The notes under the pieces were generated by a model. The model saw nothing but the letters and a program-made list of their open reading frames with translations, was not told where the DNA came from and did not search any database. The translations under genes and the position numbers were made by a program. A stretch of 64,000 bases of DNA from Isoetes taiwanensis (Eukaryota; Streptophyta; Lycopodiopsida; Isoetales; Isoetaceae): the NCBI GenBank assembly GCA_021234155.1, contig JAJEKV010000013.1, forward strand, positions 3,671,871-3,735,870, read 5' to 3'. Shown here piece by piece: positions 3,981 through 64,000 of the stretch. Each line of letters opens with the position of its first letter. The first letter of the stretch is position 1.

Positions 3981-6868
3981 TTAAGAAACATTAAGTATTC
4001 TGTCACAGTCAGAATATGGAGCATTAGAATCAATAACATTGAGAGAAGGCACAAACAAATCGAAATGGCCCCTGTATAGCCCAATAGAATTCCAGCAAGT
4101 GTTATATCTGTCTCCAAATTTTCTTGAAATGGCTTCAATATCTAATTGAAAATGCATTTTGATCCAGAAAATAGAAAGAGGTTTAGATGCATAGAGGACC
4201 CTATTTCTTGATTTCCAAATGTTCCATAAGGCAGTGTGCACAAGAGTGTTTGCAAAAGTGTCACCTTGTTGCAGGAATTGAATAATGTTATTAAAATTCC
4301 TATTTTTCAAAAATGAGCTAATCTTATTAAAGAACCAGGCCCAGAAAGGTCTCAGTTTGGGACAAAGGAATATATGCTGTAGATTCTCTTCCTGAAGACA
4401 TCCAGAGTTACATATCGAAGAAACATTGCATCTTCTAGATAAGGAAACCAAGTTTGCTAGACTTTTTTGAGCAATCAACCAAACAAAGAAGCAAATTTTA
4501 GGGGTACAATACGACTTCCAAACATTTTCAAAAAGAGACTGAACTTGAGGTTGATCTAATGACCATTTCTGCAAAGCCTTTAGTGGAGCATCAGTCACAT
4601 TAATCAAGGTATAAATTTCTTTGACCCGGTAAGCATTTTTTCCATTTATGGAGCAACCAATAGATTTACTGAAGTCACCGAAATTATTAAAGGAAGCCAA
4701 GATATTCTTGAAATGCAGAAAAAGCTTCTTATCACTGGAGGTACCCCTTAGAGCAGTCTTCAAAGCAGTCCAAGTTATGAAAGTGTTATTTCCTCTGTAG
4801 AGATCTTTTATAGTAGTGATACCTTTATTAGACCACTTACTGTAAATCTTAGGATGTTTAATGGCCATTATATTGGAAAATTGACCAGAGAAAATTGGTG
4901 ACCAAAAAAGATCAGTATTCATTGTGGCTTGAAGAATATTGTCTCTCTGAAGCACAGGATGAATTTTATTCCAGGCCATTATTAGATTTCTCATCAAAGG
5001 AGAAGTATTGGGAGCAGGGTGAATGTCCACAAAAGCAGATTCAGGAAGGGAATGCTTAATAGAGGGATGTCCAGTAGGGTAAGAGCAATTAAGCCAGTAC
5101 TCAATGAACTGGGATGCAGCAGAATTGTTTCCCATGATAGTTCTCCAGATATATTTTCCTGCCAAAGAACAAGCCTGAAGGTGAAGATTTTTACATCCAA
5201 GTCCTCCCAGATTTTTAGGCCTAGAGACAGAATTCCAATTAACCAGATGTGAGCCATTCCAGATGAAATTTCTAATAATCTTCTCCAGCTCAGAATAAAT
5301 TGATTTAGGAGCAATAAGAGCAGAGGAAAAGTACACATGAGAGGAAGCTAAAACTGAGTTTGCAATGATTGTCCTGCCAGCAAATGATAGGCAATTCCTA
5401 TAATTATTCAATTTCCTTTTGATTCTTTGAAGGATAGGATCCCAAAGACCCTTTAAATTTGGACTGAGAGAGAGAGGCATACCTAATAAATTAGAAGCTT
5501 GATTAGGATTCAGAACTGGAATGTCACAAATATAAGTCTGAGAGACATCTCCTATGATCTTACTTTTGTCAATATTGAGATGGACACCTGATGCTGCAGA
5601 GAATTCCTTAAGAAGATCTAGGAAGGTATTGATGTTGCTGGGATTGGAATCCAAGAAGGCAAAAGTGTCATCAGCATACTGTGAAATTGTAAGCATATCC
5701 AAGTTATTAGGAAGAGATAAACCAGTTAACAGACCAGAATTTTGCAAATGGAGAACACATCTCGTGAGCATTTCAGCAACAATGAGAAAAAGATAAGGGG
5801 CCAATGGGCAACCTTGTCTGACACCTTTTGCCAAGGGGAAGAAATTTGAAGGAGATCCATTGATCAAGACAGCAGAGTTGGACATAGAATTTAAACCATG
5901 AATAAGAGATATGAGCTTGGCATGAAAACCCATCTTTTTGTGAGCAAGGTCAATGAAATCCCAACTTACAGAATCAAAAGCTCTCTTAAAATCTAACTTA
6001 AGCAGAATGCAAGATTGATGGGAGATTCTATTCCAATGTAAGCCTTCCATAGCACTAATATAGTTATCCAGGATAAATCTATTTGGTAGAAAGGCAGATT
6101 GATTGACACTTATATTTTTCTGGAGGAAAGCCTGAATTCTTCTAGCAATAATTTTGGCACAGAGTTTGTAAGAAGAATTGGTGAGAGAGATTGGCCTCCA
6201 TTCATTGAGGGAAGAAGGATTATCAACCTTTGGCACTAAAGTAATGAAACCAGCAGAAATGGAAGAGTGTAAATGATTAGAATTCCAAAACCCGTGCACA
6301 AGGCCAATAATGTCAGATTTCATAATGTCCCAAAATTGAGAATAAAATTCTGGGGGAAATCCATCAGGACCAGGAGATTTGTTCTTGGAGAAGCTCAATA
6401 GGGTTTTAAAAATTTCCTCCTCCCCAGGAATAGTAGTTAAGGAGATATCCATAGAATCAATAGGATTTGGAAGAATAGAGTCCGACCTAGCAAGAAATTT
6501 GTCTCTGTTTATTATATCAGTAGCAGTAAGATCATTGTCCTTGAAAAGAAATGAGTAGCTGTCATAAAAATACTTCTTGATCTCATGATTCGAGCTGAGA
6601 GTAGTGCCAGAGTCATTGATTACATGACTTATAGAGTTCTTGAGAAGTCTGGACTTAGCTACTCGAAAGAAAAATTTAGAGCTCACATAGTCTATCTCAC
6701 TATTGTATTTGATTTTACATTTTATTGCAGAAAATCTGGCTTCCTTTTCCTCAATGGATTTAAGGTGCCTCTCAATTAATTCCTCTGCTATATGAAGACT
6801 AGAGTTAAGCAAGAATTCATTAGTTTGAGAAATTTGGAATTCTCGTTTAGCTTGAAATAGGTCGCAGT
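3981..6868 (-). pseudogene. LINE ORF2 reverse transcriptase and C-terminal zinc-ribbon
   Basis: About 960 residues remain open in one frame. Reverse transcriptase landmarks in order are PGPDGFPPEFY, ISLTNSSYKLCAKIIARRIQ, LKLDFKRAFDSVSWDFI, KGVRQGCPLAPYLF and the catalytic YADDTFAFLD (about 5,655-5,690), followed by LLGMPLSLSPNLKGLWDPI in the thumb. Near the C-terminus is the zf-RVT region, PKICFFVWLIAQKSLANLV followed by spaced Cys and His residues (LQHIFLCPKLRPFWAWFF). There is no RNase H domain, normal for this branch. The first in-frame ATG is at 6,812 but homology extends upstream to the insert border, so this is the back half of ORF2, cut off from its endonuclease by the insert. Confidence 0.88.
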
Positions 6869-6889
6869 GGCCATATAAATCGCAGAAAT

Positions 6890-8425
6890 AGCTTCACGAG
6901 GACCTCATTGGTGACCCAGAAACAGGCAAAAAAGGTTGGTCAAATCGCGGTCGCGATCATTTTGCACATGGAAGACCAATATATTTAATTTTAAAGGTAA
7001 TTTTATAATATATGGTATTGTAATTGACGTAGATATTGCACATGATGGGCTTGAAAAGATCGTCGTTGCGATCTTTTAGAACAAGAAATGGGTGCATATT
7101 AGACACCCAAAGACAATATAACAATTTTATTTTATACATCTTAAATGCGATTTTGTTTATCCAATATTGAAAAAAACATTAAATAACAATTTTTTTTTAG
7201 GTTTCGAAAACAATCATGTCGCTTGATTTGCTTGAGCAAGAATATAGTTGTGTTCCCCTGGTTGTGTTCATCCAAATCGCCATGGCGATTTCATGGACCA
7301 TTAACCTTCCATAAATTAGAGCTTGCTTGATTCTGTACGGATGGTAAGCTTGCAATCAGATGGTAAGAATCATCTACATAGCAAAAAGACAAATGAATTA
7401 TCAGAACTTACCGGTAATTGAGTGAGAAAACCTCCTGTTTCTCTGATGTTTCTCTGATATTTTGCTATAGAACGCCTTAATCTTCTCTAGTCCATACATC
7501 GGTGTAGGTGTATAATAGCTAGATATGCAGTACAGAAACAAGTCCAGCCCAAATGCTTGGCAGAATGATTTTCTGAGAATGATTTTAAGCGACTAATGGC
7601 CCAAATGCTAAGCAGAATGATTTTACAGAATGATTTTACAGAACTGGAGACTAAAGAAGGGATAATCTTTGCTATTTCTCTGGTCTGTGGAATACCTTGG
7701 CTATAGAAATTTTATTGAGATTACAGAGCTGTTGTGATTAACCCATGGAGTGGCAAGCGGATAGCAGACCTGGGTATTTGAAGGCTCCTTATCACAAATT
7801 TGAGAGTTCTGTTCTGCATGCGCAAAGGCAACCGATTTGCCTCAGTAAATGTAGAAACAAGAAAACAAGGATAGATATCAGCATTGAGATCCAGAAGCCC
7901 TATAACCTGAGCCCTCGCTATGGCCGCTACATAAAACTTGGAGATCGGAAGTTCTGTAACAAAAGCCCTAAGATCTTACCTTTCTTTTATGGCCGCTGCA
8001 GAAATTTTGAGATTCGAAACCCTGTAATAAAAGCCCTGGCTATGGCTGCTGCAAAAAACTTTGGAGATCCGGAAGCCCTGTAAGAAATCCTTGGCTATGG
8101 CGATGAGATCCTGCAAGTCCGGCCATAGATCCTGCAAGTATGGCGATGAGATCCTTGGCTAGTGCGATGAGATCCTGCAAGGAAACGGAAGAGAAAATCC
8201 GGAAGAAGAGGAAGTCGGCATGGTCGCTCGCGACCACTCATGGTCGCTATCCGCACTCAAATTTAAATGAAATTGGATATTATGCACCTAATTCTCTATT
8301 CCCACCCATGTTGGGCGCGACAAGATTTTAAATTAAAGCGAAGCACTTTTTGCTTATGGTGGACCCGGAGGGCTCTATTCAAAATTCTCAAAATCCCGCT
8401 ATTTTATCTAATTAATGAAACCTTG
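6890..8425. mobile_element. Foreign insert of about 1.5 kb inside LINE ORF2
   Basis: The linker between endonuclease and reverse transcriptase is interrupted: left of 8,427 the protein stops after IDPYN and resumes near 6,868 with DLFQAKREFQISQ. The intervening DNA encodes nothing recognisable. It contains short palindromes such as atcgccatggcgat and atcgcggtcgcgat and a degenerate tandem repeat (7,900-8,185). No terminal inverted repeats or clear TSD were seen; TTATA occurs at both borders but is too short to rely on. The class of the insert is unknown. Confidence 0.6.
7900..8185. repeat. Degenerate tandem repeat, about 60-75 bp units
   Basis: Three diverged units share the words agccct, tatggc-gct, acttggagatc-ggaag and ctgtaa-aaaagccct. 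They are followed by a shorter array of atggcgatgagatcctgcaag-like units at 8,097-8,185. The array lies within the insert that interrupts the LINE. Confidence 0.6.
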
Positions 8426-25104: not shown

Positions 25105-25342
25105 AAGATTATCCTGATCCGTTTTTATATTTTTATATTTCATGCTGGTTCAAACATGACCGTGACTCTTAAATAAGACGCTCGCACTGGGTATCATCAA
25201 CCCGATAACTTTTGAGCCGAGTATCCTATACCTACACAAGGTGGCCTTTGCACAGAGTTAAACAAATGAGTTGACTCTAGATATTCAGGAACTGTGCTCT
25301 TCATCTGGAAATGGGCACTCTTCATCTGGAGCAGATCTGGAG

Positions 25343-27094
25343 ATGGAGGCTTCTAAGACCGGCGAAGAAGCCCCTCTATTCCGCCCTCCCTACCCAAATC
25401 CTCCATCTCCATATCCTACTTCTTCCCGTCGCCGCTGCAACATATTCTTGCTGCTTCTTCTCCTCTTAATCCTCCTCCTAATCTCCATAGCCATTCCCCT
25501 TACCATATCCAAGCTTAAAAACCCGAAGCTCGAAGACCACAGAACCGTTTTCCATTTTCAGCCTCAGAAATACTGGATGAATGACCCAAATGGCATGATG
25601 TTTTTTAATGGTTACTACCATTTATTCTATCAGTATAACCCCACAGCAGCGATCTGGGGTAATATTACATGGGGCCACGCGGTTTCTAAGGATCTGATCC
25701 ACTGGACTCATTTAACAATTGCCCTCAAGCCTGATCATTGGTATGATTCATGTGGAATATGGACTGGATCTGCAACGATTGTTGAAGGTAAGCCCTTTTT
25801 AATCTACACAGGATGTACAAATGCTTCAGTTCAGGTCCAAAACAAAGCATCTCCATTAGATCTATCAGACCCTTATTTGCAGGAATGGATCAAGGACTCT
25901 AACAACCCTATTCTAGTTCCTCCTGCCCAAATAAATGTGTATGATTTTAGGGATCCTACAACTGCTTGGATTGGACATGATAAAAAATGGAGAATATTGG
26001 TAGGATCCCAGAAAAATGGCACTGGATGTGCATTTTTGTATGAGAGTTCAGATTTTTTGAAGTGGGAAAGCACTGATCATCCTATTCATTTCGTCAATGG
26101 AACAGGAATGTGGGAATGCCCTGATTTTTACCCTGTTTCTTTGCAAGGGAAATTAGGGCTAAATACTTCTGACAACGGAGAATATGTCAAACATGTTTTA
26201 AAGGCTAGCACTGAATCTAGTGATTCATACATGGTAGGAACTTATGATCCAAAAAATGACACTTTCTTGCCTGATGATCAGAATATTGAAGATGGTGTAG
26301 GATTTTTATATGATTCTGGTAGATTCTATGCTTCCAAAACATTTGATGACTATAATAAGCAGAGAAGAATATTGTTTGGTTGGATTTCAGAAGCAGATGA
26401 TACACTAGATGCTATTTCTAAAGGCTGGGCTTCTGTTCAATCTATTCCAAGAGTAATATGGCTTGATAAAGCTGACAACAGACTTGTTCAGTGGCCTGTT
26501 GAAGAGCTAGAAAAGCTCAGAAAGTTGGCCATTGCAAAAGAGAATTTGATCTTAGAAACAGGAAAGACTACTCAAATAGGAGCTGCTCTTGATCTGCAAA
26601 TGGATATGGAGGTAAATTTTAAAATGGATTATGACTTAAACCTGTTGCCCAAATTGAATCAATCTGCTTCAAGAGCTAATGAAACCTGTAGTTGGACAGG
26701 ATCAACACAAGGATCATTTGGGCTGTTCATTATTTCATCTCAGGATCAACAGCAAAACATGAGAGTGTATTTTAGATTATACAACATGGAAGGAAGATTG
26801 AGGGCTCTATTTTGCACAGATCCAACTAGATCTTCCCAAAAATCAAGAGAGAAAATCTATGGGAAGTACATAGATGTGATGGAAGAAGGGATGATATTAT
26901 CTTTGAGGGTTCTAATAGATCATTCAATTGTGGAGTGCTTTGTTCAAAATGGAAAAGCTGCAATCACTTCTAGAGTATATCCTCATAGTGCTGCAGGTTA
27001 TACTTTCGTTTACAATGATGCTCCATATAGCATCAGTGTAGTTAATGTTAGCTTGTGGCAAATGCAAAGCTTGAGATTCAATACTATTCTTTGA
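25343..27094 (+). CDS. Acid invertase (beta-fructofuranosidase), GH32, membrane-anchored, intronless
   Basis: Hydrolyses sucrose to glucose and fructose, or fructans if it is an exohydrolase. The frame is 583 codons from the ATG at 25,343, chosen because the open frame upstream lacks another ATG and the resulting N-terminus suits vacuolar invertases: a short acidic and proline-rich cytosolic tail, RRR, then one membrane segment (about residues 34-56) as anchor and vacuolar targeting signal. Catalytic motifs are complete: WMNDPNG with nucleophile Asp81, WTGSAT at 140-145, FRDP with Asp204, and WECPDFYPV with acid/base Glu258. The C-terminal beta-sandwich is present (HSIVECFVQNGKAAITSRVY). WECP, rather than vacuolar WECV, is the cell-wall/FEH-type form, so the protein mixes vacuolar and cell-wall features. 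No intron interrupts it, although most plant invertase genes carry a 9 bp mini-exon encoding DPN. It appears functional. Confidence 0.92.
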   Translation: MEASKTGEEAPLFRPPYPNPPSPYPTSSRRRCNIFLLLLLLLILLLISIAIPLTISKLKNPKLEDHRTVFHFQPQKYWMNDPNGMMFFNGYYHLFYQYNPTAAIWGNITWGHAVSKDLIHWTHLTIALKPDHWYDSCGIWTGSATIVEGKPFLIYTGCTNASVQVQNKASPLDLSDPYLQEWIKDSNNPILVPPAQINVYDFRDPTTAWIGHDKKWRILVGSQKNGTGCAFLYESSDFLKWESTDHPIHFVNGTGMWECPDFYPVSLQGKLGLNTSDNGEYVKHVLKASTESSDSYMVGTYDPKNDTFLPDDQNIEDGVGFLYDSGRFYASKTFDDYNKQRRILFGWISEADDTLDAISKGWASVQSIPRVIWLDKADNRLVQWPVEELEKLRKLAIAKENLILETGKTTQIGAALDLQMDMEVNFKMDYDLNLLPKLNQSASRANETCSWTGSTQGSFGLFIISSQDQQQNMRVYFRLYNMEGRLRALFCTDPTRSSQKSREKIYGKYIDVMEEGMILSLRVLIDHSIVECFVQNGKAAITSRVYPHSAAGYTFVYNDAPYSISVVNVSLWQMQSLRFNTIL

Positions 27095-53599: not shown

Positions 53600-53720
53600 G
53601 TTTTTAGCAGAGTTATATTGCTCAAAATGATGAAGCCATCTACGACAGCCAGATTAAGTGGCCAAATCCCAGTGGATTTGAAGCCAGCTCTAATATTCTC
53701 AGGGTTGGGTTTTTGTAGCC
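53600..53720 (-). pseudogene. pogo/DDE_1-type transposase relic, distal part
   Basis: The minus strand reads ENIRAGFKSTGIWPLN, the motif that closes pogo/Tigger-type DDE transposases and plant relatives (GFRxTGIWPLN), then runs out. Its upstream part lies on the far side of the CACTA element (63,727-63,748), with the trinucleotide GCC duplicated at the break. One extra base just before ENIRAG shifts the frame, so the gene was probably dead, or died, independently of the CACTA insertion. Confidence 0.7.
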
Positions 53721-53734
53721 CACTACAAGGGATA

Positions 53735-54165
53735 GTCGTCCTTCAACGACGTCGAGACGTCGACGAGCGGCCAGGTCGTCGTAAAAAAAGCAGCGACATC
53801 GTCGTTCAACGGCGATAACGTCGTTTCGGCGTCGTTCAACGGCGTGTATCGGGGCGACGGTCGGTTACTGCGTGGCATGGTCATGGTGCCAAGTTGGCCT
53901 GCCCGCGTGTCAATACCGCGTCGGTGGGCGCCGTTCAACGGCGTCTCACATAAACGGCGACGTCGCGCGCGTCTGCGTGGAAATGGGTTGTTGCCAACTT
54001 TGGCGGCCTGCGTGTCAAGACGCCGCCGGTGGGCGTCGTTCAACGACGTCTCCGCGGCCGACGTTTCATGTTGGCATCCGTGGCATGGTTGGTGCCAAGG
54101 CGGGCTGCTGCGTGCGGAGACATCGTCGACCTCGGCGTCGTTAAACGACGTTACCACGAGGAAAT
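53735..54165. repeat. CACTA left subterminal array
   Basis: Dense, GC-rich array of cgtcgttcaacg/ggcg-type words in both orientations, about 15 units. In En/Spm such subterminal motifs bind the element-encoded TnpA protein and define transposition competence; here the motif is a near-palindrome of the form ACGTCGTT-AACGACGT. Confidence 0.85.
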
Positions 54166-54194
54166 TTTTTTTTTTTTTTTTTTGCCAAATAAAA

Positions 54195-54218
54195 CCCTAA
54201 CCCTAACCCTAACCCTAA
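54195..54218 (+). promoter_or_regulatory. Four tandem CCCTAA units inside the CACTA element
   Basis: CCCTAA is repeated four times without interruption, preceded by AAAA, between the GC-rich left array and the first gene. It can be read as a telo-box cluster of the kind found in plant promoters, placed upstream of the SET gene, or as a short interstitial telomere-like tract of the hexamer type. A promoter role is inference. Confidence 0.5.
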
Positions 54219-54764
54219 ATCCACGTTATAAGTGGATCCATCGAGATTCTTTGTTATTCTTATCTTTTGAGTGTTCTTCCCTATCTTGCTATAATGGTTA
54301 AGCAGCTTGAAGACCACCTTCGCGCGATATATTCCTTCTAGCATTAATCCTCCTCCTCCAAGGGAAGACAACTCCAAAGAACCCCCCGCTTCTCCGTGAG
54401 AACCCTCCCTTCACCATCGTGGGCAAAGATGAGTGAAAAGGAGCTTCGATTGCACTAACATCCGGGCGTTCCATGCGGGGAACGATCGGTAGAATGGCTC
54501 ACCGAGCCAAACAAAGAGAAAACGACATTAATGGTGCGTATAATGATGTAAATGGTTGCATCAAACCCGCCACGCCCCTCGGGATGGACATAAGTAATGT
54601 ATAAGCTTTTTTTTTTTTTTTGAATGGAAACAATAAGTTTTTTTATCTATTTGTGTTGTCGTTGTATAAGCTTATTTTATGAATGGGAACAATCAGTTTT
54701 TTTATTTATTTGTGTTATTTGTATTGTATGTTGTTTCTGTTATGTTAAACAATCACAGTTGGTC

Positions 54765-55040
54765 GTTTAACGACGTTATGATCATTTGACGTCGTTAAAC
54801 GACGTTATGATCATCTGACGTGGCATATGAGGGGGCATCGGGGCGCCCAACGCGGCGGGCATGCCTAGGTGTCGAGACGATCGGCTTCATTTGACGTCGT
54901 TAAACGACGTTATGATCATCTGACGTGGCATATGAGGGGGCATCAGACGGCCCAAGCTGACGTGGCATGCCTAGGTGTCAGGACAGTCAGCTTGGCGTCG
55001 TTAAACGACGTCACACAGACGTCGATAAACGACGTTAAAT
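54765..55040. repeat. Inner CACTA array: about 107 bp tandem repeat with ACGTCGTTAAACGACGT palindromes
   Basis: Two full units (starting near 54,786 and 54,893) share tgacgtcgttaaacgacgtt, atgatcatctgacgtggcat, atgagggggcatc and gcatgcctaggtgtc. Each unit begins with a perfect palindromic core, and more cores follow to 55,035. Confidence 0.85.
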
Positions 55041-55239
55041 ATGGCGGAACCCTCGGGTTATTTACCATTTCTTTGTTATTTTGACTCGTTTGTTTCGGAT
55101 TTTTTTGCGCCCGTGGGTCTTCATAAGGTAAGATCTATGCTAATTTGTTAATCTTTGTGGTTTTAGAGTTAAACACCTCCAAATGCTAATAGATTAGAAG
55201 ATTGAATCTTGAAAGTATGTTAAAAACTTGAGGGATGCA

Positions 55240-55412
55240 TGATCAAGGTACTGGTCGGCTCCATCCCGAATGGAGAAGACTAGATGTATCGGGTTTATGC
55301 ACCTCAGAACAGAAGTTTCAATCTTCATAGATTACAAAAGATTTGAAAGGTTGCGTGAATATAAGGTACTGGTCGACTCCATTTCAAATGGAGAGGACTA
55401 GATGTATCGGGT
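55240..55412. repeat. Direct repeat of about 60 bp inside the CACTA 5' region
   Basis: The block aaggtactggtcgactccat followed by ggactagatgtatcgggtt-like sequence occurs at about 55,242-55,302 and 55,352-55,412, probably in a leader or intron region before the SET gene. Confidence 0.75.
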
Positions 55413-55639
55413 TCAGGCACCCTTCAATCAAATGCTTTCTAAATATCATAAACGTTGTATGAATCTGAATCTTAAGAATAAACATTTGATAAAATCATGA
55501 AAAAACATGGATATTTATATTTATTATATTATTACATGGTTTTTTATTAATATTTTATTGTTTACTAGAAAAACAACATGGACGAACGCGTGGAAGGAAT
55601 TTGAACGTAAAGTGAGACAGTAAAGCTTTGAGAAAGTTA

Positions 55640-56899
55640 CATGGCGACTGCAAAAAGAATGTTACCCCAACAATTGCCACAAATAGTCCAATTAGACCCA
55701 GTGGACCGAGTCTTCCTAGAGGCTTTGGTGGTGTGCATGAAATGAATGCCGCCGATGTATGTACCATAAACATGTTTCGAATGATTAGTTAACTTTATAT
55801 CTTGATGTTTTTTTTTTTTTTTGCAGTTGTACTTGACAGAGCGGTTATATTGCAATTGTTCGATGTGCAAAGGACAAATAAAACGGATGAGAAAGACTGT
55901 CCTCGACCATGTTGACAAATATGGTGAATGCCCGACAAATCCAGTGCTCTCGGACGCACATGTGGGGTATTCCAACGAGGTATAATACGAATCTCATGAA
56001 CTCGAATCAACTACTCTCATGTACTTGAATCGACGTCTTAACTTAGTTTGCTTGTATTTTGTTAGGAAGAAATTGAGAATGAAGTGAGCTCGAAGCAGTA
56101 TATAGATTTTGGGGTTATGTTGTCATTGGAAGTAGATGATGTTGATACTATGAATGCGTTCATAGAAAACCCTACAAAAAGAAAGCCATCAACTTCCTCA
56201 AAGAGTATCCCATTACGTGATAGAACTCGTCGTGCAATGGCCGTTGCCAAGATTGGAGGGAATGACAATGTTCATCAAAATTGGAATGTACTAGATCATG
56301 TAGAAGAAAATAATCTTCCACCTTCACTAGTCCATTTGGTCCAGCCCTTTACAGATAAAGATCGTAAGAAATTCAATGCATGGCCTAGAGGCAAGCCAAT
56401 TATTTATGGGGAGCAATTTACATATTGGGGTAGGCAGTACATGATTAAAAATAGTCGGGTCCCCGGTGCTGGCCTGGGATTATATATTATGACGAATACA
56501 AAAGTCAAAGATGGTACGATTGTTCCTTTAATGCCATATGTAGGTCCTGAATATAACTCAGACACTTGGCATAAATTGAGTAAGCATCAGTGGCGCATGC
56601 TCATCTATGGCCTAAATTCAAATGCACTAACAATATCCAAGCCCGTTGATCACGCAAGCTTCACATATATTGATGGTCGCCCCGGTTGCATGGAAACCTT
56701 TGCTTTTATTAATAGCTCTATCGAGAATCTTGAAGCTACCAATTGTGAATTTGTCGAGGCAAACAAAGACCAAGAAGATTTTTTAGGCGTAAAATTGTGG
56801 GGGAGATATATCATGGTTTATGCTATAAAAAATTTGTGTATTGGTGATGAATTGTTCATTGAATATGAATACGGTAGACCAATACCGGAGGTCCTTTGA
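55640..56899 (+). CDS. SET-domain protein (putative protein lysine methyltransferase) carried by the CACTA element
   Basis: At least three exons. An upstream block (about 55,640-55,760, ending NAAD before a donor) is tentative. Exon 55,827-55,979 encodes LYLTERLYCNCSMCKGQIKR plus VLDHVDKYGECP, a Cys-rich segment resembling the transposase-associated N-terminal domain of CACTA proteins. The long exon 56,066-56,899 continues in phase for 278 codons. It holds a SET-like fold: the SAM-binding box SRVPGAGLGLYI (about 56,455-56,490), VPLMPYVGPEY, then FAFINSSIENLEATNCEF (about 56,704-56,753, in place of RFINHSCxPNC) and the closing GDELFIEYEYG (about 56,842-56,875, for GEELxxDYG). The His of NHS is replaced by Ser, so activity is uncertain. 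No stop or frameshift interrupts this exon, unlike the neighbouring transposase. Confidence 0.7.
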
Positions 56900-57469
56900 T
56901 GATGTACTCAAATTACTCATATAATTTTCGTCGGAATGCACCCTTTTTCTTCTTCTTCTTGAATTCTTCTTCTTCTTCTTTTTCGAATTTTTCGAATTCT
57001 TCTTCTCTTGGAATGAGATTGCACATATTGAAGATAAATGTATTATATCTTCAATATATGCTTTGATTATGACATAAAATTTTATATTTCGTTAGATTTT
57101 ATTAAATGCTTAAAATTTAACAAACACGGGCTCTCAATGCATGTATCAATCACGATATATTTCGTTTAAACTGACGCGGTGGGGTAGGCAAGTGGATATG
57201 AGACCACATCCAAGCGCATCAATTGGCGACATCAAACGTCATTGCGGATAGCGTAATTAGAATACATTGAGCAAAGATGGTACAAACATGGGCACAACGC
57301 ATAATGAAGAGTACAATGATGAAGATGAGCAGAATACGATGATGAAGATGACGACAATGCCCTATGGACAACTTCATGGAAGTTGAGGAACCCATAGCCG
57401 ACACATGTTAGATGCATTTGGCCCAATCTTGACAACGACCTAGATGACGATATAAATACTCCTAACGAT
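56900..57469. other. Intergenic stretch within the CACTA element
   Basis: AT-rich 3' flank of the SET gene with a ttcttcttc microsatellite at about 56,948-57,004, then non-coding sequence that may include decayed N-terminal transposase exons (acidic gatgaagatgagc- repeats near 57,317-57,350). Confidence 0.4.
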
Positions 57470-59515
57470 GGTCATGAAGATCACGTTTTATTAGAGGAGG
57501 CGATAAAGCATTATATCCGGTGCAAGCATATCTAGATTGGCGACATCTTTATTGATATTAAACCTTCAAGCCAAATTCAAATGGAGCAATGCCGATTGTT
57601 ACGGCTTTGTTAGAGTAAGTACAATTGCAATCACTTGACTTATTGAATTTGTAGTTGAATGTATACGTAAAGGTCTGTTTTATACAGGTTATTGCAAGAG
57701 AAAATACTCCCACAAGGGAACACTATGCCCAAAAGTCGCACTGAAATAAAAAATATATTGGCAGCTACTGGTTTAGGCTACCATAAGATTCACGCTTGTC
57801 CAAATGATTGCATGGTATATTATCAAGAATGACATCTACAAGAACACAGAAACATGCCCTAAATGTGGTGCCTCTAGGTACAACGCAGATGCCAAGGGAA
57901 AGACCGTCCCGATGAAGGTGGTTCGCTACTTTCCATTGATCCCTCGCATAAGGCTATTGTTTCGATGTGAATCTCTAGCTTCCGCTCATGGGTTGGTGTG
58001 CCGCTAATGCGCCGAGTGACAATGTACTCACGCGTGGTTAGTGATTTGCAAGCAATGGAAGCATATTGATGAAACATGGCCGAATTTGGAAGAGAGCCAC
58101 GAAATCTCAGATTAGGGTTGGCAACGGATGGTGTTAATCCTTATGGACGCCAATCGCCGCGTGGTCAACTTGGCCATGAGTGTTGATCAACTATAATTTA
58201 CCACCGTGGTTACTCATGAAGACTAGCCATTTAATGGTAGTACTATTAGTTCCAGGACCGAAGAAAGGAAAGTCTAGATCCGTGATTCGAAAATAGTTAT
58301 TGATGAGCTTTTGACATTGTGGAGTGAAGGTATTGAAGTTTACGATGTCTCAAGAGAACTTAGATGTTGAACGAAGATTTACCTTGAGAGCAATCTTAAT
58401 GTGGACAACGAAACAGTGGCCTGGTTTGTATGAACTCTCCGGACTCCAAGTGTCCGGATATGCGGCATGTCACTTGTGTGGGTTTGAACAGTTGAACTCT
58501 CGCCGGTCAACGGCATTGCACAAAAATGTCTATGCAAACTTCAAGAGATATATCGCCAATGGAAAATCGACTTCGATCGAGGTCCAAGAGAAAAACATTG
58601 TAATCAAGAGCCTCCCAAAAGGTTGACAATGAGAGATTGGGGTAACATGTGGGATGCCATTTGAAGGAAATAAGGTTAAGGGAATGAAGTGGAAAGCATC
58701 CTTCTTCCTTCTACCCTATTGGATGTAATTGAAGATCCATCATCTTCTTGATCCCATGCACATCTTTAAAAACGTTTGGCGTCTATTTGGAGGCATGTCA
58801 CGGGATGTAAGGACACGGATGCAAACGAGAAGATCTACAAGAAGCTGGATCAAAATCTAAAGCATGGTTAAATGTCAAGAAGGAATAAGGCCACAAGTGG
58901 ATTGGATCGTGCCTAGAAAATGTATGAAACCCGCTCGAGAAGCTTATCAAGGCAATAAAGACTCCGAGCCGGATATATGCATTCGCGTAATTATTTCTCT
59001 AACGAAGGGGAGTTAAGCGGGTTGAAATCTCATGATTGGCATAAGATGTTGCGCTTTTTGTTATGCCTATTGTTCGAGGGGTCGCCTCGGGCCGACGGTC
59101 CACTACGTGCAATATGTCTCCTATCGAGTTTTCCAAGGTTCGTGACGGATTTTAGAAAACACTCGATGCTGAACTCTCACTTAACTTTTTTCTTTCTTAA
59201 ATGATATTTAGATGGATTACAAGGAAGGAGATACCGACAAATGAAATTGCGGACATGCGAACTAAGGTCGTTGAGGCATGTTGTATGCTAGAGAAAGAAT
59301 TCCCAACAAGTTTTCTGGACATACAAACTCACTTACTAGTGCATTTAGTGGACGAAGTAGAGCTTGCAGGCACAACAAATCCTAGATGGATGTTTTTTAT
59401 AGAACGCTTTCTGAAGGTCCTCAAGGACTTCGTACGTCAGAAGGCAAGGCCAGAGGGTTGCATGGCCGAGGGTTGGTTAGCACGAGAGTCATTATTCTAT
59501 GTCACCGGGTAGCTT
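57470..59515 (+). pseudogene. CACTA TNP2-type transposase relic (Transposase_21 and DUF4218)
   Basis: Pieces in order: KFKWSNADCYGFVR, then after an intron at about 57,613-57,687 LLQEKILPQGNTMPKSRTEI and YHKIHACPNDCMVYY; after a frameshift TCPKCGASRYNADAKGKTVP with RYFPLIPRIRLLFRC (zinc-binding TNP2 box, 57,857-57,965). Next are LATDGVNPYG (first catalytic Asp region), YNLPPWLLMKTSHLM and LVPGPK (58,190-58,265), and LYELSGLQVSGYAACHLCGF. The SGLKSHDWHKM box lies near 59,015-59,050, then DUF4218: ACCMLEKEFPTSFLDIQTHL, RWMFFIERFLKVLKDFVRQK, ARPEGCMAEGW. Several frameshifts and stops disrupt it. The intact protein would excise and reinsert CACTA elements. Confidence 0.85.
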
Positions 59516-59559
59516 CATGGAATTGCTCAAAGAAGCGACGTGCAGATCACAAGAACATC

Positions 59560-60765
59560 ATTGCGGATCTCAATGCACGTCAGTTGGAGGTAATTAAAAA
59601 TGCTTTGCATCAGGGGGGAAGCTCTAGTGGAGCAGGGCCTAGCAAGGCCCACTTTTCTTTGGAGAATCACATGAACACATCAATCTTTGTTGATCCCATA
59701 CCCGTAGAGGCCGTGGATGTGATACGCCGTATTGAGGAGAAACCAACACATCGCACGTATCAAATCAAGATCAACGGAACACAACACTTCCAAGATGATG
59801 AGCTATACAGTGGATGGGTTTTCAAGGGCAAAGATAGGGCAGAGACGTATGAGATGGCTCAAAGATACATACGCTTCAAGAGCCCGCATCCTGCTTTGGC
59901 TACATCCATTGGACTTGCATATGAAGTTGCTAGCTCTAGTGGGGATACCATAGGGCCAATGGTGATTCTACCTTTCATGAATGGAGAGACACTTGCACAC
60001 TTGTTTGACTATTTACCTAATAACTTGTCACGTTTTAGAAGATGGTCAAATGCAATTGCTAGAGCGCCAAGAAGAACTGACAAACACATAGGCTTTGAAC
60101 TTAGGAGCAAAATGCGAAGTTGTATATCAAGATGTTCCGAGAGATAGCTCTTGCCCTAGCAGAAGGTGTCGTTGAGATCCACAAAGGCCACTTCACTCAC
60201 ACAAAGCTTAATTGCAAGAGAGTCAAATTACATTTTGATGATGAGTACCAAAATGTGTGGGTGGCCATTGGTGATTGGGACAATGCAATTCATTTTACGC
60301 CAAAGAGCGTCGTCCCTTGTTGAAGTGTCGGTACTTACTTTTCGGATGGACAAGCAAAATATCCATGGTTAGAGGAAACCGTGTTTGAGAAATCAAAGGA
60401 TGATGATCGTGTATGGGGATCTGAAATTCATGATGTCTATGCATTGGGATATATTTATGAGATGCTTCGGATTTTCGTGCAAGCTATGCGGACGAATGGA
60501 GTGGTTTAATAATAACAACAATGCCCAATGGATTAATCCAACCCATATGTACCAACGACGTCTTGACAAGTTGGAGGAGCAAAAAACAAGAATGATGTGC
60601 CTACGTGAAGACGTATTCTCATCACGACCCAAAGCTTCTGAAGTTGTTGAAGCCTTACAAAGTGTTGGAATATCTTCTACCATGGTTGTGAGACAAAGAC
60701 GACACATGAAGTGCATGGATGCCTTGGAGATGTCAAAATTGTTGTTGTCACAACTCAAAGAATGA
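59560..60765 (+). pseudogene. Protein-kinase-like (pseudokinase) gene inside the CACTA element
   Basis: Downstream of DUF4218, frames add up to a divergent protein-kinase fold. There is an N-lobe-like GWVFKGKDRAETYEMA and a hinge-like PMVILPFMNGETLAHLFDYL (59,960-60,020). In another frame comes a helix MFREIALALAEGVVEIHKG with HFTHTKLNCKRVKLHFDDE in place of HRDLKxxN, then VAIGDWDNAIHF in place of DFG. A third frame gives GTYFSDGQAKYPWLEETVFE with SEIHDVYALGYIYEML (SDVYSLG-type box, 60,420-60,470). Finally FSSRPKASEVVEALQSVG closes the C-lobe (60,620-60,675). Catalytic residues are degenerate even where the fold signature is kept, so it is a pseudokinase or a strongly decayed kinase. Unspliced introns or frameshifts explain the frame changes near 60,110 and 60,325. 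Confidence 0.6.
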
Positions 60766-61189
60766 ATACAATATTGTATATCTTGCCATGTTTAAGAGTA
60801 TTAAATTTTTTTAATTGTCTAATAACCAAATATATAGACACTTTTAATTATTCAAATCCCAATGTTTTGTAATGAACTTCCCATGTTGCTAACATTTACT
60901 ATGTTATTCATCGTGACTCCATATAAATAACTTGCAAGTTTTGCACATGTCCAAAGAACCATGGGATGCGCACGATGGCATATCTATTGTTCGAACTTTA
61001 CTTCGTGTGGCTTGGTAGCCTTAATGACAGCCCTAAACCTGCAAAGGCCTTTAAGAGGCGAAGTTGGTCGTTCGGGTTTAGCTCGCCACCACCGCCACCT
61101 CCACCATTGTGCGGATTTGGTATGGATTTTTTTCTAGGATAAAATGTAAGTTAACCATTTATTTTTAACGTTCTAATGTTTTTAAATGT
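60766..61189. other. Spacer within the CACTA element
   Basis: AT-rich, with a possible short coding piece rich in Pro (caccaccgccacctccacc, 61,087-61,105) that may be the 5' exon of the next gene. Confidence 0.35.
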
Positions 61190-62720
61190 AGCGTGTAAAT
61201 GCGGTTGCGTCCTTCTTTTCCTATGCATAATGTTCGTCGTCGTGGTTCTGGGCGGATCTTCTTCTCATGAAAGACGAAGAGTCGGAGGAAAAGGACCTCG
61301 ATTCGAGGAGCCAGACGAAGAGCTGGGAACTCCGAGATATCAACGAGGCGATAACCCTGAAGATAGGTGGAATGCCTTGCAACTTGGGATGTCGCCCGCA
61401 GAAATGGATATTGCGCGCCGGGCTGTTGAACAAAGTAGGCGGAGGTCTGGCGCCTGTGACCCTCCACGTCATAGCTCATACACTCCTTCAGAATTCAATC
61501 TTGGGCCCCTTCAGGGGGCGGGGATCCAACCCGCACGACGAGCAAGCAACCGCCGTTCACGCCGAGTGGACGCAATTCCTCTTCAAGCTCTATTAAAGAT
61601 CGTGCACCACCTGCACCACCTCCACGAAGGCATGTCTTTGAATATGAGTGAGTTCATCTTGAATTATGCCCTTTTTTGTTCACGAACACATATTCATATG
61701 TTAGTCGTATGTTGAGTGTAGTAACAAGAAAGGTGCCGCCGCCACAAAGACCGCAGATGGCGACAATTTTTGGAGGATGGCTAATAGTGTCACAAATAGC
61801 GTTTGCCATAACGTCCACAAGGGTGAATGGAACTCGGGAGCCTATGATGAGGAAAAAGAGAGGATCAAGGAGCTTTTAGAAGCAGAATATCCCGAGCTCA
61901 AGTCAGGAGAGATCTCATGGAGGGAGGTTTGTTCAAAGCAGGGTAAACATGTTAAAGCCACCAGGTATTAGGCTCTTTCGTTCTTCATTATAACCTCATT
62001 GTACTCATATTTTATTTATATTTTGCAGAGGTAATCAGAAGAAGCAGCTGAAAGCTCTTGCCAAAGCTACAGGAGTCTCGATAGAGGAAGTGGCACAGCC
62101 TATCTGGTTGACTAATGAGGCATTTCAAGTACATCATCTCTCCCATGAGTCGTATAATTAGATGATGCCATGTGGACTAAGTCCTTGTATTGCATTGTAG
62201 TCGGGAGAGTCGTATAATTAGATGACGCCATGTGGACTAAGTCCTTGTATTGCATTGTAGTGTTTGAAGGCCAACATATTATCAAAGAAAGGGGAAGCTA
62301 GAACAAAGGCGTGCTACTGACGCGAGGTAATGACGAAGCAAGTGGCGACCATATAGTGCCAATAAGACTGGTCCGGGCGGTTATGGCTTTCTGGATAAGC
62401 TATTTGTAAGTATAAATTTGGTTTATAATGTAGGTTCTCGAGTTGAACACTAACATTAGTTTTGGTGCTCATTCTCAATAGAAGTCATTTGCTGGTCGCC
62501 CGGCTGCTAAAGATGAACGCGAAAGGGCCTTCAAAAAGGCGGGTCATGCGGCCATCCAAAGACTGTACATACTTGGCGGAAGCGAGGGACGTGTGTATCA
62601 TTCATTAGATAATTATTTGTGACTACAATGAACTAATTGTTGCGATACAATATAATGCAGGTAAATGAAGACGAACCCGCCAATGAAGAAGAAGAAGAAG
62701 AAGAAGAGAGCAACAACTAA
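61190..62720 (+). CDS. Fourth CACTA gene, unrecognised
   Basis: Several protein-like plus-strand blocks separated by plausible introns. They are an Arg/Glu-rich segment (61,270-61,600, GTPRYQRGDNPEDRWNALQL in one frame), ANSVTNSVCHNVHKGEWNSG and KELLEAEYPELKSGEISWRE (61,777-61,965), NQKKQLKALAKATGVSIEEV after an acceptor at about 62,029, SFAGRPAAKDERERAFKKAG (about 62,485-62,545), and a poly-Glu C-terminus encoded by gaagaagaag (62,684-62,712) ending at a stop near 62,719. Position after TNP2 and the basic/acidic makeup recall the DNA-binding partner protein (TNP1/TnpA-like) of CACTA elements, which would recognise the subterminal arrays, but I see no diagnostic domain. Confidence 0.45.
62147..62260. 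repeat. 60 bp period tandem duplication in the fourth CACTA gene
   Basis: gagtcgtataattagatga, then gccatgtggactaagtcctt, then gtattgcattgtag occur at 62,147-62,200 and 62,207-62,260, differing at one base. The duplication covers an intron or exon border region. Confidence 0.9.
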
Positions 62721-63169
62721 AGACTCAATATATTTTGTAATGTGCAAATTACATTGTGAAATATATTAAATTTTTTATGCTTTGTTCTTATTATTTGTGA
62801 TTTTTTTGTTATGTTAATTTTATGCTCGATTCTATTTTTTATTCTTAGATTTATTAAACATTTAATTACATATTAAATAATAATGCTTATCTACCATGAT
62901 CTTTTGAATACTAATATAATTTAATCAATATTTGTTTCTATTTTTCGAATTTTTAAATTTTTAATTTTTATTCTCGATTTATTTTGTTCATATTTAATAT
63001 TTATTAATTCTATTAATATTATTGTTAATATTAATATTATTTAATAATATTAATAAATATTACTAAATATTTATTTATATTAAATATTTGTTAATATTGA
63101 ATATGAATATTAATTGTCCTTTAAATAATATTGAATAATATTAAATAAATATTTTTTTTTTCAAAATTC
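62721..63169. other. Very AT-rich spacer of the CACTA element
   Basis: Made largely of taatatt/aatatta words (62,990-63,160), with no coding capacity; probably the 3' flank of the last gene. Confidence 0.5.
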
Positions 63170-63715
63170 ATTAATCGTCGTTGAACGACGTTGAGGGTGT
63201 GGTCGCCACGCGTGTATCGCCACCGCGATCATTCGTCGCCACGCCAGCGCCACGCCGCATTAACGCCGTTGAACGGCGTGGTGGGCGTGGTCGCCACGCC
63301 AGCCAGCAGTGTGCGATACCGTCGAAGCTGAACGCCGTTTAACGACGTTTTACACGCAGCCACGCCCGCGCCGCTTACGGCGGTAACGCCATCACCGGAC
63401 GCCACGACACGCGACATGATGGCGGTATTAATCGCCGTTGAACGGCGTTGCAAAGTCATCGCCACGCCCGGGCCACGCCGGGGGCGGCCACTCGGCAAAA
63501 GAAGTTGGCGTAATCGACCACGGTATGCTAACGACGTTGAACGACGTCAGGTCGTCGCTTAAAGACGCCGCGGTTGCGACGCGTATAGCGACGCATAAAC
63601 GTCGTTTATCGACGCTTAAACGTCGAAATAGACGTCGTTTATCGACGTCTTGACGTCGATAAACGACGTGCAAACGACGTCTGGACGTCGTAATAGACGT
63701 CGTAACAGGGCTTTA
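63170..63715. repeat. CACTA right subterminal array
   Basis: GC-rich array of cgtcgttgaacgacg, cgccgttgaacggcg and acgtcgtttatcgacg words in both orientations, about 20 units. The palindromic pattern matches the left array, so both ends carry the same presumed binding motif. Confidence 0.85.
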
Positions 63716-63726
63716 ATCTTGTAGTG

Positions 63727-64000
63727 GCCAATGCATTAGAAATCAAGCCTGTAAGAAAAAGAAATGTTAGTCTCATGAACATAACATTCATATCAAACCA
63801 GCATAGTTACCTCTACTAGTTGTGCCTTTGACCAAAGTTTCTTCCATCATGTAGTTAGCTCTATTATGCCTGAAATATTTCTTGAATGGTTCAAAAACTG
63901 CCCCATTAAGTAGTTGCATTTTATGAGAAGTGTGAGGAGTTAGAATAACTAGGTGATCCCCAAGGATCTGGTTTGAATCACCACCTCATTGGTTATGTGG
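63727..64000 (-). pseudogene. pogo/DDE_1-type transposase relic, proximal part
   Basis: Minus strand, entering from the right edge: LVILTPHTSHKMQLLNGAVF and EPFKKYFRHNRANYM match the DDE_1 motif LPPHTSHKLQPLDVxVFGPFK of pogo/Tigger transposases and the host genes derived from them. A 62 bp intron follows (donor at 63,810, acceptor at 63,749; gtaact...cttacag). The next exon (63,748-63,727, GLISNALA) is cut by the CACTA element and continues at 53,720 with a one-base frameshift. The catalytic Asp residues lie outside the window. Confidence 0.72.

Follow-up and report, generated by a model that had tools for sequence, protein, structure and literature searches.

Why does a plant DNA transposon contain an exon for a SET-domain protein? 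The question is raised by a 64,000-nucleotide stretch of Isoetes taiwanensis contig JAJEKV010000013.1 (the window, to which all coordinates refer unless a locus is named), in which a preliminary description placed a SET-like gene in a CACTA element, after its left repeats and ahead of its transposase. The analysis reported here finds that a large group of plant CACTA elements carries a SET-type exon inside the transposase gene, which suggests that these elements make their own chromatin-modifying enzyme.

The element spans 10,006 bp (53721-63726). Its ends are CACTACAAG...CTTGTAGTG (left terminal inverted repeat, 53721-53729; right, 63718-63726), and a GCC target duplication flanks it on both sides (53718-53720, matching 63727-63729). 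The palindrome CGTCGTTNAACGACG, counted with at most two mismatches, occurs 20 times in the element: 11 copies in the left 1.4 kb (53737-55034), and 9 in the right 0.7 kb (63176-63668). No copy lies in the middle of the element, and the 53.7 kb that precede it in the window have none either. Between these arrays, all on the plus strand, lie the exons of interest: exon 1 of the SET gene (55578-55756); a Cys-rich exon (CxCxxC...H) with a phase-0 donor (55827-55979); the SET exon itself (56066-56899); and a decayed TNP2 transposase core (57150-59512). The core includes a Transposase_21 piece (58315-58626; PF02992, E 1.3e-10) and a DUF4218 domain (59201-59512; PF13960, E 3.8e-27). The CACTA element is real, and the preliminary description was right to place a SET-domain exon inside it.

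The hallmarks of CACTA/EnSpm elements found here are terminal inverted repeats, a 3-bp target duplication (read from the window element alone), the Transposase_21 and DUF4218 domains, and subterminal repeats. The transposase is of the Transposase_21 type, not the Harbinger or MuDR type. In a related copy, L037, the transposase matches PF02992 at E 9.6e-76 and PF13960 at E 5.1e-28. L037 belongs to a second family of these elements (family B, below), of which three copies (L033, L035, and L037) share the left end CACTACTAGAGAATGG; a search for the right ends of family B found none.

Other features of the window were recorded in passing. A 610-residue protein of glycoside hydrolase family 32 (invertase-like; PF00251, E 2.7e-99) is encoded in a single open frame at 25262-27091, with WMNDPNG uninterrupted; most plants have a mini-exon at this site. 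A LINE-like reverse transcriptase ORF of 970 residues (RVT_1, E 3.3e-32) occupies 3984-6893 on the minus strand. An Rfam search and a tRNA scan of the window returned nothing.

Is the exon a SET domain? Both reading frames first described are open (Cys exon, 51 residues; SET exon, 277 residues and a stop), and the quoted SET motifs are present. Against the Pfam SET profile (PF00856), residues 138-267 of the window exon match at E 2.2e-4; the score of 22.0 bits falls narrowly short of the curated cut-off (22.4). Searches of protein collections identified two near relatives, P0003 (80%) and P0004 (78%); then six with a profile; and then 115 at E 1 or better. The Pfam cut-off is passed by P0003 (28.2 bits), P0008 (29.5 bits), and P0005 (32.6 bits), and likewise by P0013 and P0016. 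Among 43 aligned relatives of the SET exon, 28 match the profile at E 0.01 or better. A profile made from these 43 sequences finds weak matches in the PDB: SET-type chains at E 0.005 and 0.0057, and an unrelated isomerase at 0.0084. Structure prediction gives a mixed answer. The AlphaFold2 model of P0003, built from the 43 sequences, is itself weak (pLDDT 57.7), yet its best 50 of 368 Foldseek matches are all SET proteins, with a best E of 2.2e-4 and low TM-scores. MLL1, SET7/9, SETD8, SUV39H2, and G9a are among the SET matches. (A first model, from seven sequences and with pLDDT 43, was set aside.) That the exon is no SET domain and merely resembles one by chance has a negligible probability and is in practice refuted: the window copy does fall 0.4 bits short of the Pfam cut-off, but relatives exceed it, 28 of 43 match at E 0.01 or better, and the fold search returns SET proteins.

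Most of the 115 relatives share 64% or more identity with P0013, and many of them are fragments. The P0013 group constitutes an additional SET clade, whose many fragmentary copies come from ENA, JGI, and Logan contigs; it may represent elements of this kind in other plants. A scan of IMG/VR gave 18 pattern matches and no relative.

The preliminary description called the main exon intact. This does not hold. Alignment with 15 genomic copies reveals two out-of-frame stretches in the window exon, each opened by one indel and closed by another. The first (56684-56704) covers the conserved HGNLAGF motif and converts QLHGNLAAF to GCMETF-AF; its start is shared with one of the 15 copies (L013). The second (56783-56800) converts FFRRKIDG to FLGVKLWG and is found in the window copy alone. 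Since the paired indels destroy a conserved SET motif, the open frame does not denote an intact protein. It is thus uninformative about a working protein, and the functional evidence rests on other copies. Exon 1 is frameshifted in the window, where it measures 179 bp; in L021 and L023 it measures 177 bp and is open (MDERQKEF...NAAD), and in L027 it measures 176 bp and is shifted too. The window copy lacks the splice acceptor of the TNP2 core that is present in L021, L023, L025, and L027 and, in variant form, in L031. The neighboring TNP2, first described as full of frameshifts, is broken by these and by stops. Judged from these lesions, the window copy is dead.

Other copies are abundant. A search of the host genome (1.66 Gb in 1110 contigs) located the SET exon in more than 200 places, which fall into three families: A, which includes the window copy; B; and C. 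The window SET exon has at least 157 matches and that of family B at least 142, in overlapping lists. These matches are the best candidates scored; 235 separate places were kept (134 and 101), some of them fragments. Many of the listed copies contain stops.

Many of the SET places are linked to a transposase. A listed DUF4218 match lies within 5 kb of 41 of the 138 family A and B SET places; 40 of the 41 lie 1.8-4.4 kb downstream and share the strand of the SET exon, and the other is on the opposite strand. Among the matches listed for the 101 family B and C places, 24 DUF4218 pairs are downstream on the same strand and 1 is otherwise. Viewed from the transposase, 61 of 150 listed DUF4218 matches are preceded by a listed SET copy on their own strand at a distance of up to 5 kb, and two pairs have the wrong side or strand. 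When the listed matches are sorted by identity to the window DUF4218, such a SET copy accompanies 27 of 59 at 79% or more, 34 of 83 at 62-78%, and none of 8 below 62%. Widening the interval to 13 kb upstream raises the total to 71 of 150, and the 8 most distant matches still have no listed SET copy. The DUF4218 matches without a listed SET copy upstream (89 of 150 at 5 kb, 79 at 13 kb) reflect in part the limited length of the lists, in part copy decay, and in part true absence.

Exon order was read in ten 16-kb loci of families A and B. The order is Cys-SET-TNP2 in L021, L023, L025/L026, L027, and L031 of family A, and in L033, L035, and L037 of family B. In L029/L030 and L039/L040 the Cys and SET exons are present, with no TNP2 match within the stretch read. 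For family C, the same order is known from one locus, L046, whose SET exon is frameshifted; further family C copies are about 60-63% identical to B, and several have open frames of about 273 residues. The SET exons are 47% identical between A and B and 61% identical between B and C (for C, two pieces of L046 were joined). The corresponding DUF4218 identities are 76-78% (window against B) and 84-85% (B against C). The two divergences rank alike, which fits descent of the SET exon with the element.

Downstream of the transposase, the window element contains the pieces of ORF K (59508-60770), which have no family match, and a second gene region, also of ORF pieces (61155-62730). ORF K has at least 150 matches in the genome. 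A listed match is found within 80 kb of 37 of 138 SET places, always downstream and on the same strand; the distance from SET to ORF K is 3.5 kb in the window and 8.5-71 kb elsewhere. Near DUF4218, ORF K is listed for 32 of 150 matches: 30 downstream, and 2 on the opposite strand. In the C913 copy (L041-L043), a 16-kb interval that contains other repeats and ORFs separates the TNP2 and K blocks; in the window they are adjacent. Full elements may be very large, and the window copy may be shortened at 59507. By eye, ORF K looked like a protein kinase; this assignment was dropped, as no Pfam or NCBIfam kinase model matched and a PDB search with one piece was uninformative. Within the second gene region, an ORF piece (61705-61971) has a distant relative in family B (about 30% identity; L038, L039) and is thus a second standing gene of the CACTA element.

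Some elements do without the SET exon. The transposase gene of L044 is close to those of family B (DUF4218, 94-95% identical; TNP2 core, 83%), and no SET match is present in the 8.5 kb read. Its Cys exon, which ends in GAG, is followed by a 71-bp intron and then by the TNP2 core exon, and each junction is in phase 0. Over its first 40 bp, this intron is homologous to the one between Cys and SET in family B (score 59, against a shuffle maximum of 39). The further idea that the intron fuses both family B introns was discarded: its 3' part scores 28, against a shuffle mean of 27 and maximum of 46. Because L044 is nested within the SET-bearing group, loss of the SET exon is a simpler account than repeated gain. 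Lineages such as L044 also indicate that the SET exon is dispensable for some elements. In the distant locus L047, whose DUF4218 shares 55-63% identity with the others, the 8.7 kb read contain no SET match. L045 was likewise a candidate, with none in 8.5 kb, and was withdrawn: a same-strand SET copy is listed 10.4 kb upstream of its DUF4218 (C1103:178404).

Additional ORFs were seen around these loci. Between the DUF4218 of L045 and its upstream SET copy lies an ORF for a NIF-like phosphatase (L045:3542-4300; PF03031, E 5.4e-16), either an insertion or cargo. The same RING-like ORF (weak Pfam matches, below the cut-off) is present in or near two different CACTA copies (L042:7497-7946 and L045:2082-2783). 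Two further ORFs (L045:6197-6799 and L047:4181-5248), without a convincing Pfam match, have a common SDG..SQFK...HGKGEHDG pattern; perhaps they encode another transposase.

Has selection maintained the SET exon? Comparison of nonsynonymous and synonymous change across copies, as proposed at the outset, points to purifying selection in families A and B, the families that the test covers. Copies were ranked by protein similarity and picked as open or nearly open, so the resulting omega values are low estimates. Under codon models with kappa chosen from a grid, 10 A copies give an omega of 0.367, 4 B copies 0.226, and 12 copies of A and B together 0.215. With omega fixed at 1, the log-likelihood is lower by 23.2, 17.4, and 86.1 units, respectively. 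(The models exclude the window copy and the stop-bearing or fragmentary copies L005, L008, L009, L013-L016, L018, and L020; stops in L039 were masked.) Pairwise NG86 ratios between A subfamilies (L002 or L006 against L010, L012, L017, and L019; L010 against L017 and L019) are 0.23-0.30 at dS 0.18-0.41. Pairs with L011 give 0.35-0.56; very close pairs, with few changes, give 0.25 to 0.65; and family B copies compared with the older L039 give 0.16-0.18. In three pairs, the non-coding 3' flanks differ by 0.22-0.34 and codon positions 1 and 2 by 0.05-0.13. The Cys-SET intron, which is short, diverges by 0.12-0.22 in the same three pairs and by 0 in the closest pair.

These results bear on the origin of the exon. 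The term "captured", used in the preliminary description, is misleading: in this genome the SET exon has long been a standing part of three CACTA families and is not a recently acquired host gene. Copies without the gene, together with neutral decay of the exon, had been named as refuting evidence; a SET-less copy exists (L044), but the exons tested do not evolve neutrally. A host gene fragment caught by chance and carried as a functionless passenger is accordingly very improbable, and this reading is largely refuted. The decay of the window copy and the stops in many listed copies would suit it; the identical position in three families, the congruent divergence, and the selection in A and B speak against it.

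How might the exon be expressed? The preliminary description noted that the Cys and SET exons join in phase, and the phase-0 junction is confirmed. L021 has an open frame in each of its three exons: exon 1 with 59 codons, the Cys exon with 51, and the SET exon with 278. The likeness of the Cys segment to the transposase-associated domain (Transpos_assoc, PF13963) holds as a resemblance, although every match is below the cut-off of 27.7 bits (the best is 23.9). The window and three family A copies match at E 0.009-0.024 (window, 0.024), and three family B copies at E 4.6e-5 to 1.9e-4. The match always covers profile positions 33-61, the second half of the domain. As read from the sequence, phase 0 is found in families A, B, and C at all three sites: the Cys donor; the SET acceptor; and the acceptor of the TNP2 core (in A, CAG then GGT AGG CAA GTG; in B, TTGTAG then GAT ATT CGA). 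One transcript could thus yield either Cys-SET or Cys-TNP2 by alternative splicing. The simplest reading would make the SET exon an alternative last exon of the transposase gene.

Alternatively, Cys-SET could be a gene of its own that is transcribed separately, with TNP2 expressed from its own promoter downstream; there would be no shared splicing, and the enzyme would still act on the element. Several features suit such an arrangement. In the A, B, and C copies read, the SET exon terminates at a stop of its own, and the TNP2 core exon follows after an interval (144 bp in L033, L035, and L037). Phase 0 at any one junction has a 1-in-3 chance, a caveat on shared splicing. The Cys exon itself can be read both ways. 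When the window element and 12 loci were scanned for the Cys pattern, six matched (the window element, L021, L027, L031, L033, and L037), each in one place and always before SET. A single Cys pattern before SET speaks for a separate gene; on the other side, no second pattern was found in the SET-bearing loci scanned, though the scan missed L035, with a stop in its Cys exon. (The Cys exon of L023 has a frameshift.) Against separate genes stands L044, in which a homologous Cys exon is joined directly to TNP2 in phase 0. Two separate genes are judged unlikely.

The preferred reading, with the SET exon within the transposase gene, runs as follows. The SET exon would sit between the Transpos_assoc-like Cys exon and the TNP2 core exons in one transcription unit. 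One product would comprise the Cys domain and SET, terminating at the SET exon's own stop; in the other, the SET exon would be skipped to join the Cys domain to TNP2. Both products would share a single N-terminal targeting domain, which, as proposed, would bring the SET enzyme to the element ends with their approximately 20 palindromic subterminal repeats. There the enzyme would methylate lysines, either on histones or on proteins of transposition, and this methylation would most likely keep the element open and transcribed. The best explanation overall, of two spliced products from the transposase gene with the SET product acting on element chromatin, has about an even chance of being right.

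What such an enzyme accomplishes is a further question. As a best guess, the SET-type exon encodes a putative transposon-borne lysine methyltransferase that would act on the element's own chromatin, probably against silencing. The complete scheme is advanced tentatively, as less likely than not: exclusive splicing would give a methyltransferase that shares the targeting domain of the transposase; the element would mark its own copies and so resist silencing; and the exon would be long kept in some lineages and elsewhere cleanly lost. Somewhat unlikely, by our estimate, is a SET protein with a role other than anti-silencing: it might be inactive; it might methylate a non-histone partner such as the transposase; or it might deposit repressive marks that limit copy number. 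All nine aligned sequences have NSS where the canonical motif is NHS, which makes catalytic activity uncertain and lends weight to these options. A weak likeness to PR-type SET domains (MECOM, E 1.1; PRDM2_PR for P0016) is a further point for them; some PR-type SET enzymes also lack NHS. On the other side, the AGLGL, LMPY, FINSS, and GDELFIxYEY blocks are conserved across families A and B, with omega at 0.22-0.37. SET-bearing family B and SET-less L044, as sisters in one genome, allow direct comparison.

How does this element compare with known systems? VANC is the anti-silencing protein of VANDAL elements, and VANDAL anti-silencing works via loss of DNA methylation. We know of no SET domain in the VANDAL system, nor, to our knowledge, is there one in TNPA of En/Spm. 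The maize En/Spm element resembles the window element in its CACTA ends and TNP2-type transposase; VANDAL differs in belonging to another superfamily, MuDR. According to PMC12730594, Arabidopsis VANDAL elements encode sequence-specific control of their own silencing. In maize Spm, tnpA to tnpD are alternatively spliced from one unit, and TNPA reactivates the methylated promoter (PMC1636069). On that account, the principle of multi-product splicing and self-reactivation is already known for CACTA elements.

Cargo enzymes are known in other lineages. HarbingerS and MuDR transposons of Phytophthora carry a gene for a SET histone methyltransferase (Kojima and Jurka 2014, cited in PMC12730594). They are like the window element as DNA transposons with a SET-domain gene, which PMC12730594 names among counter-measures to silencing, and unlike it in their transposase superfamilies and oomycete hosts. 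Fungal DNA transposons, EnSpm among them, carry TET/JBP dioxygenases (PMC12730594). Like the window element, the EnSpm-type ones among them bear an enzyme believed to act on epigenetic marks; the differences are that this enzyme is a DNA dioxygenase and not a SET protein, and that the hosts are fungi.

No SET gene in a plant CACTA element was found in literature titles and abstract openings, a survey that leaves subscription journals and Repbase Reports mostly uncovered, and the term "SET domain" is absent from the main text of a paper on CACTA gene structure (PMC4158355). What is new here is the SET exon as a standing, selected part of a CACTA transposase gene in a plant genome. If the anti-silencing scheme is true, plant transposons counter silencing with a histone-type enzyme aimed by a transposase domain, beside the routes taken by VANDAL and Spm.
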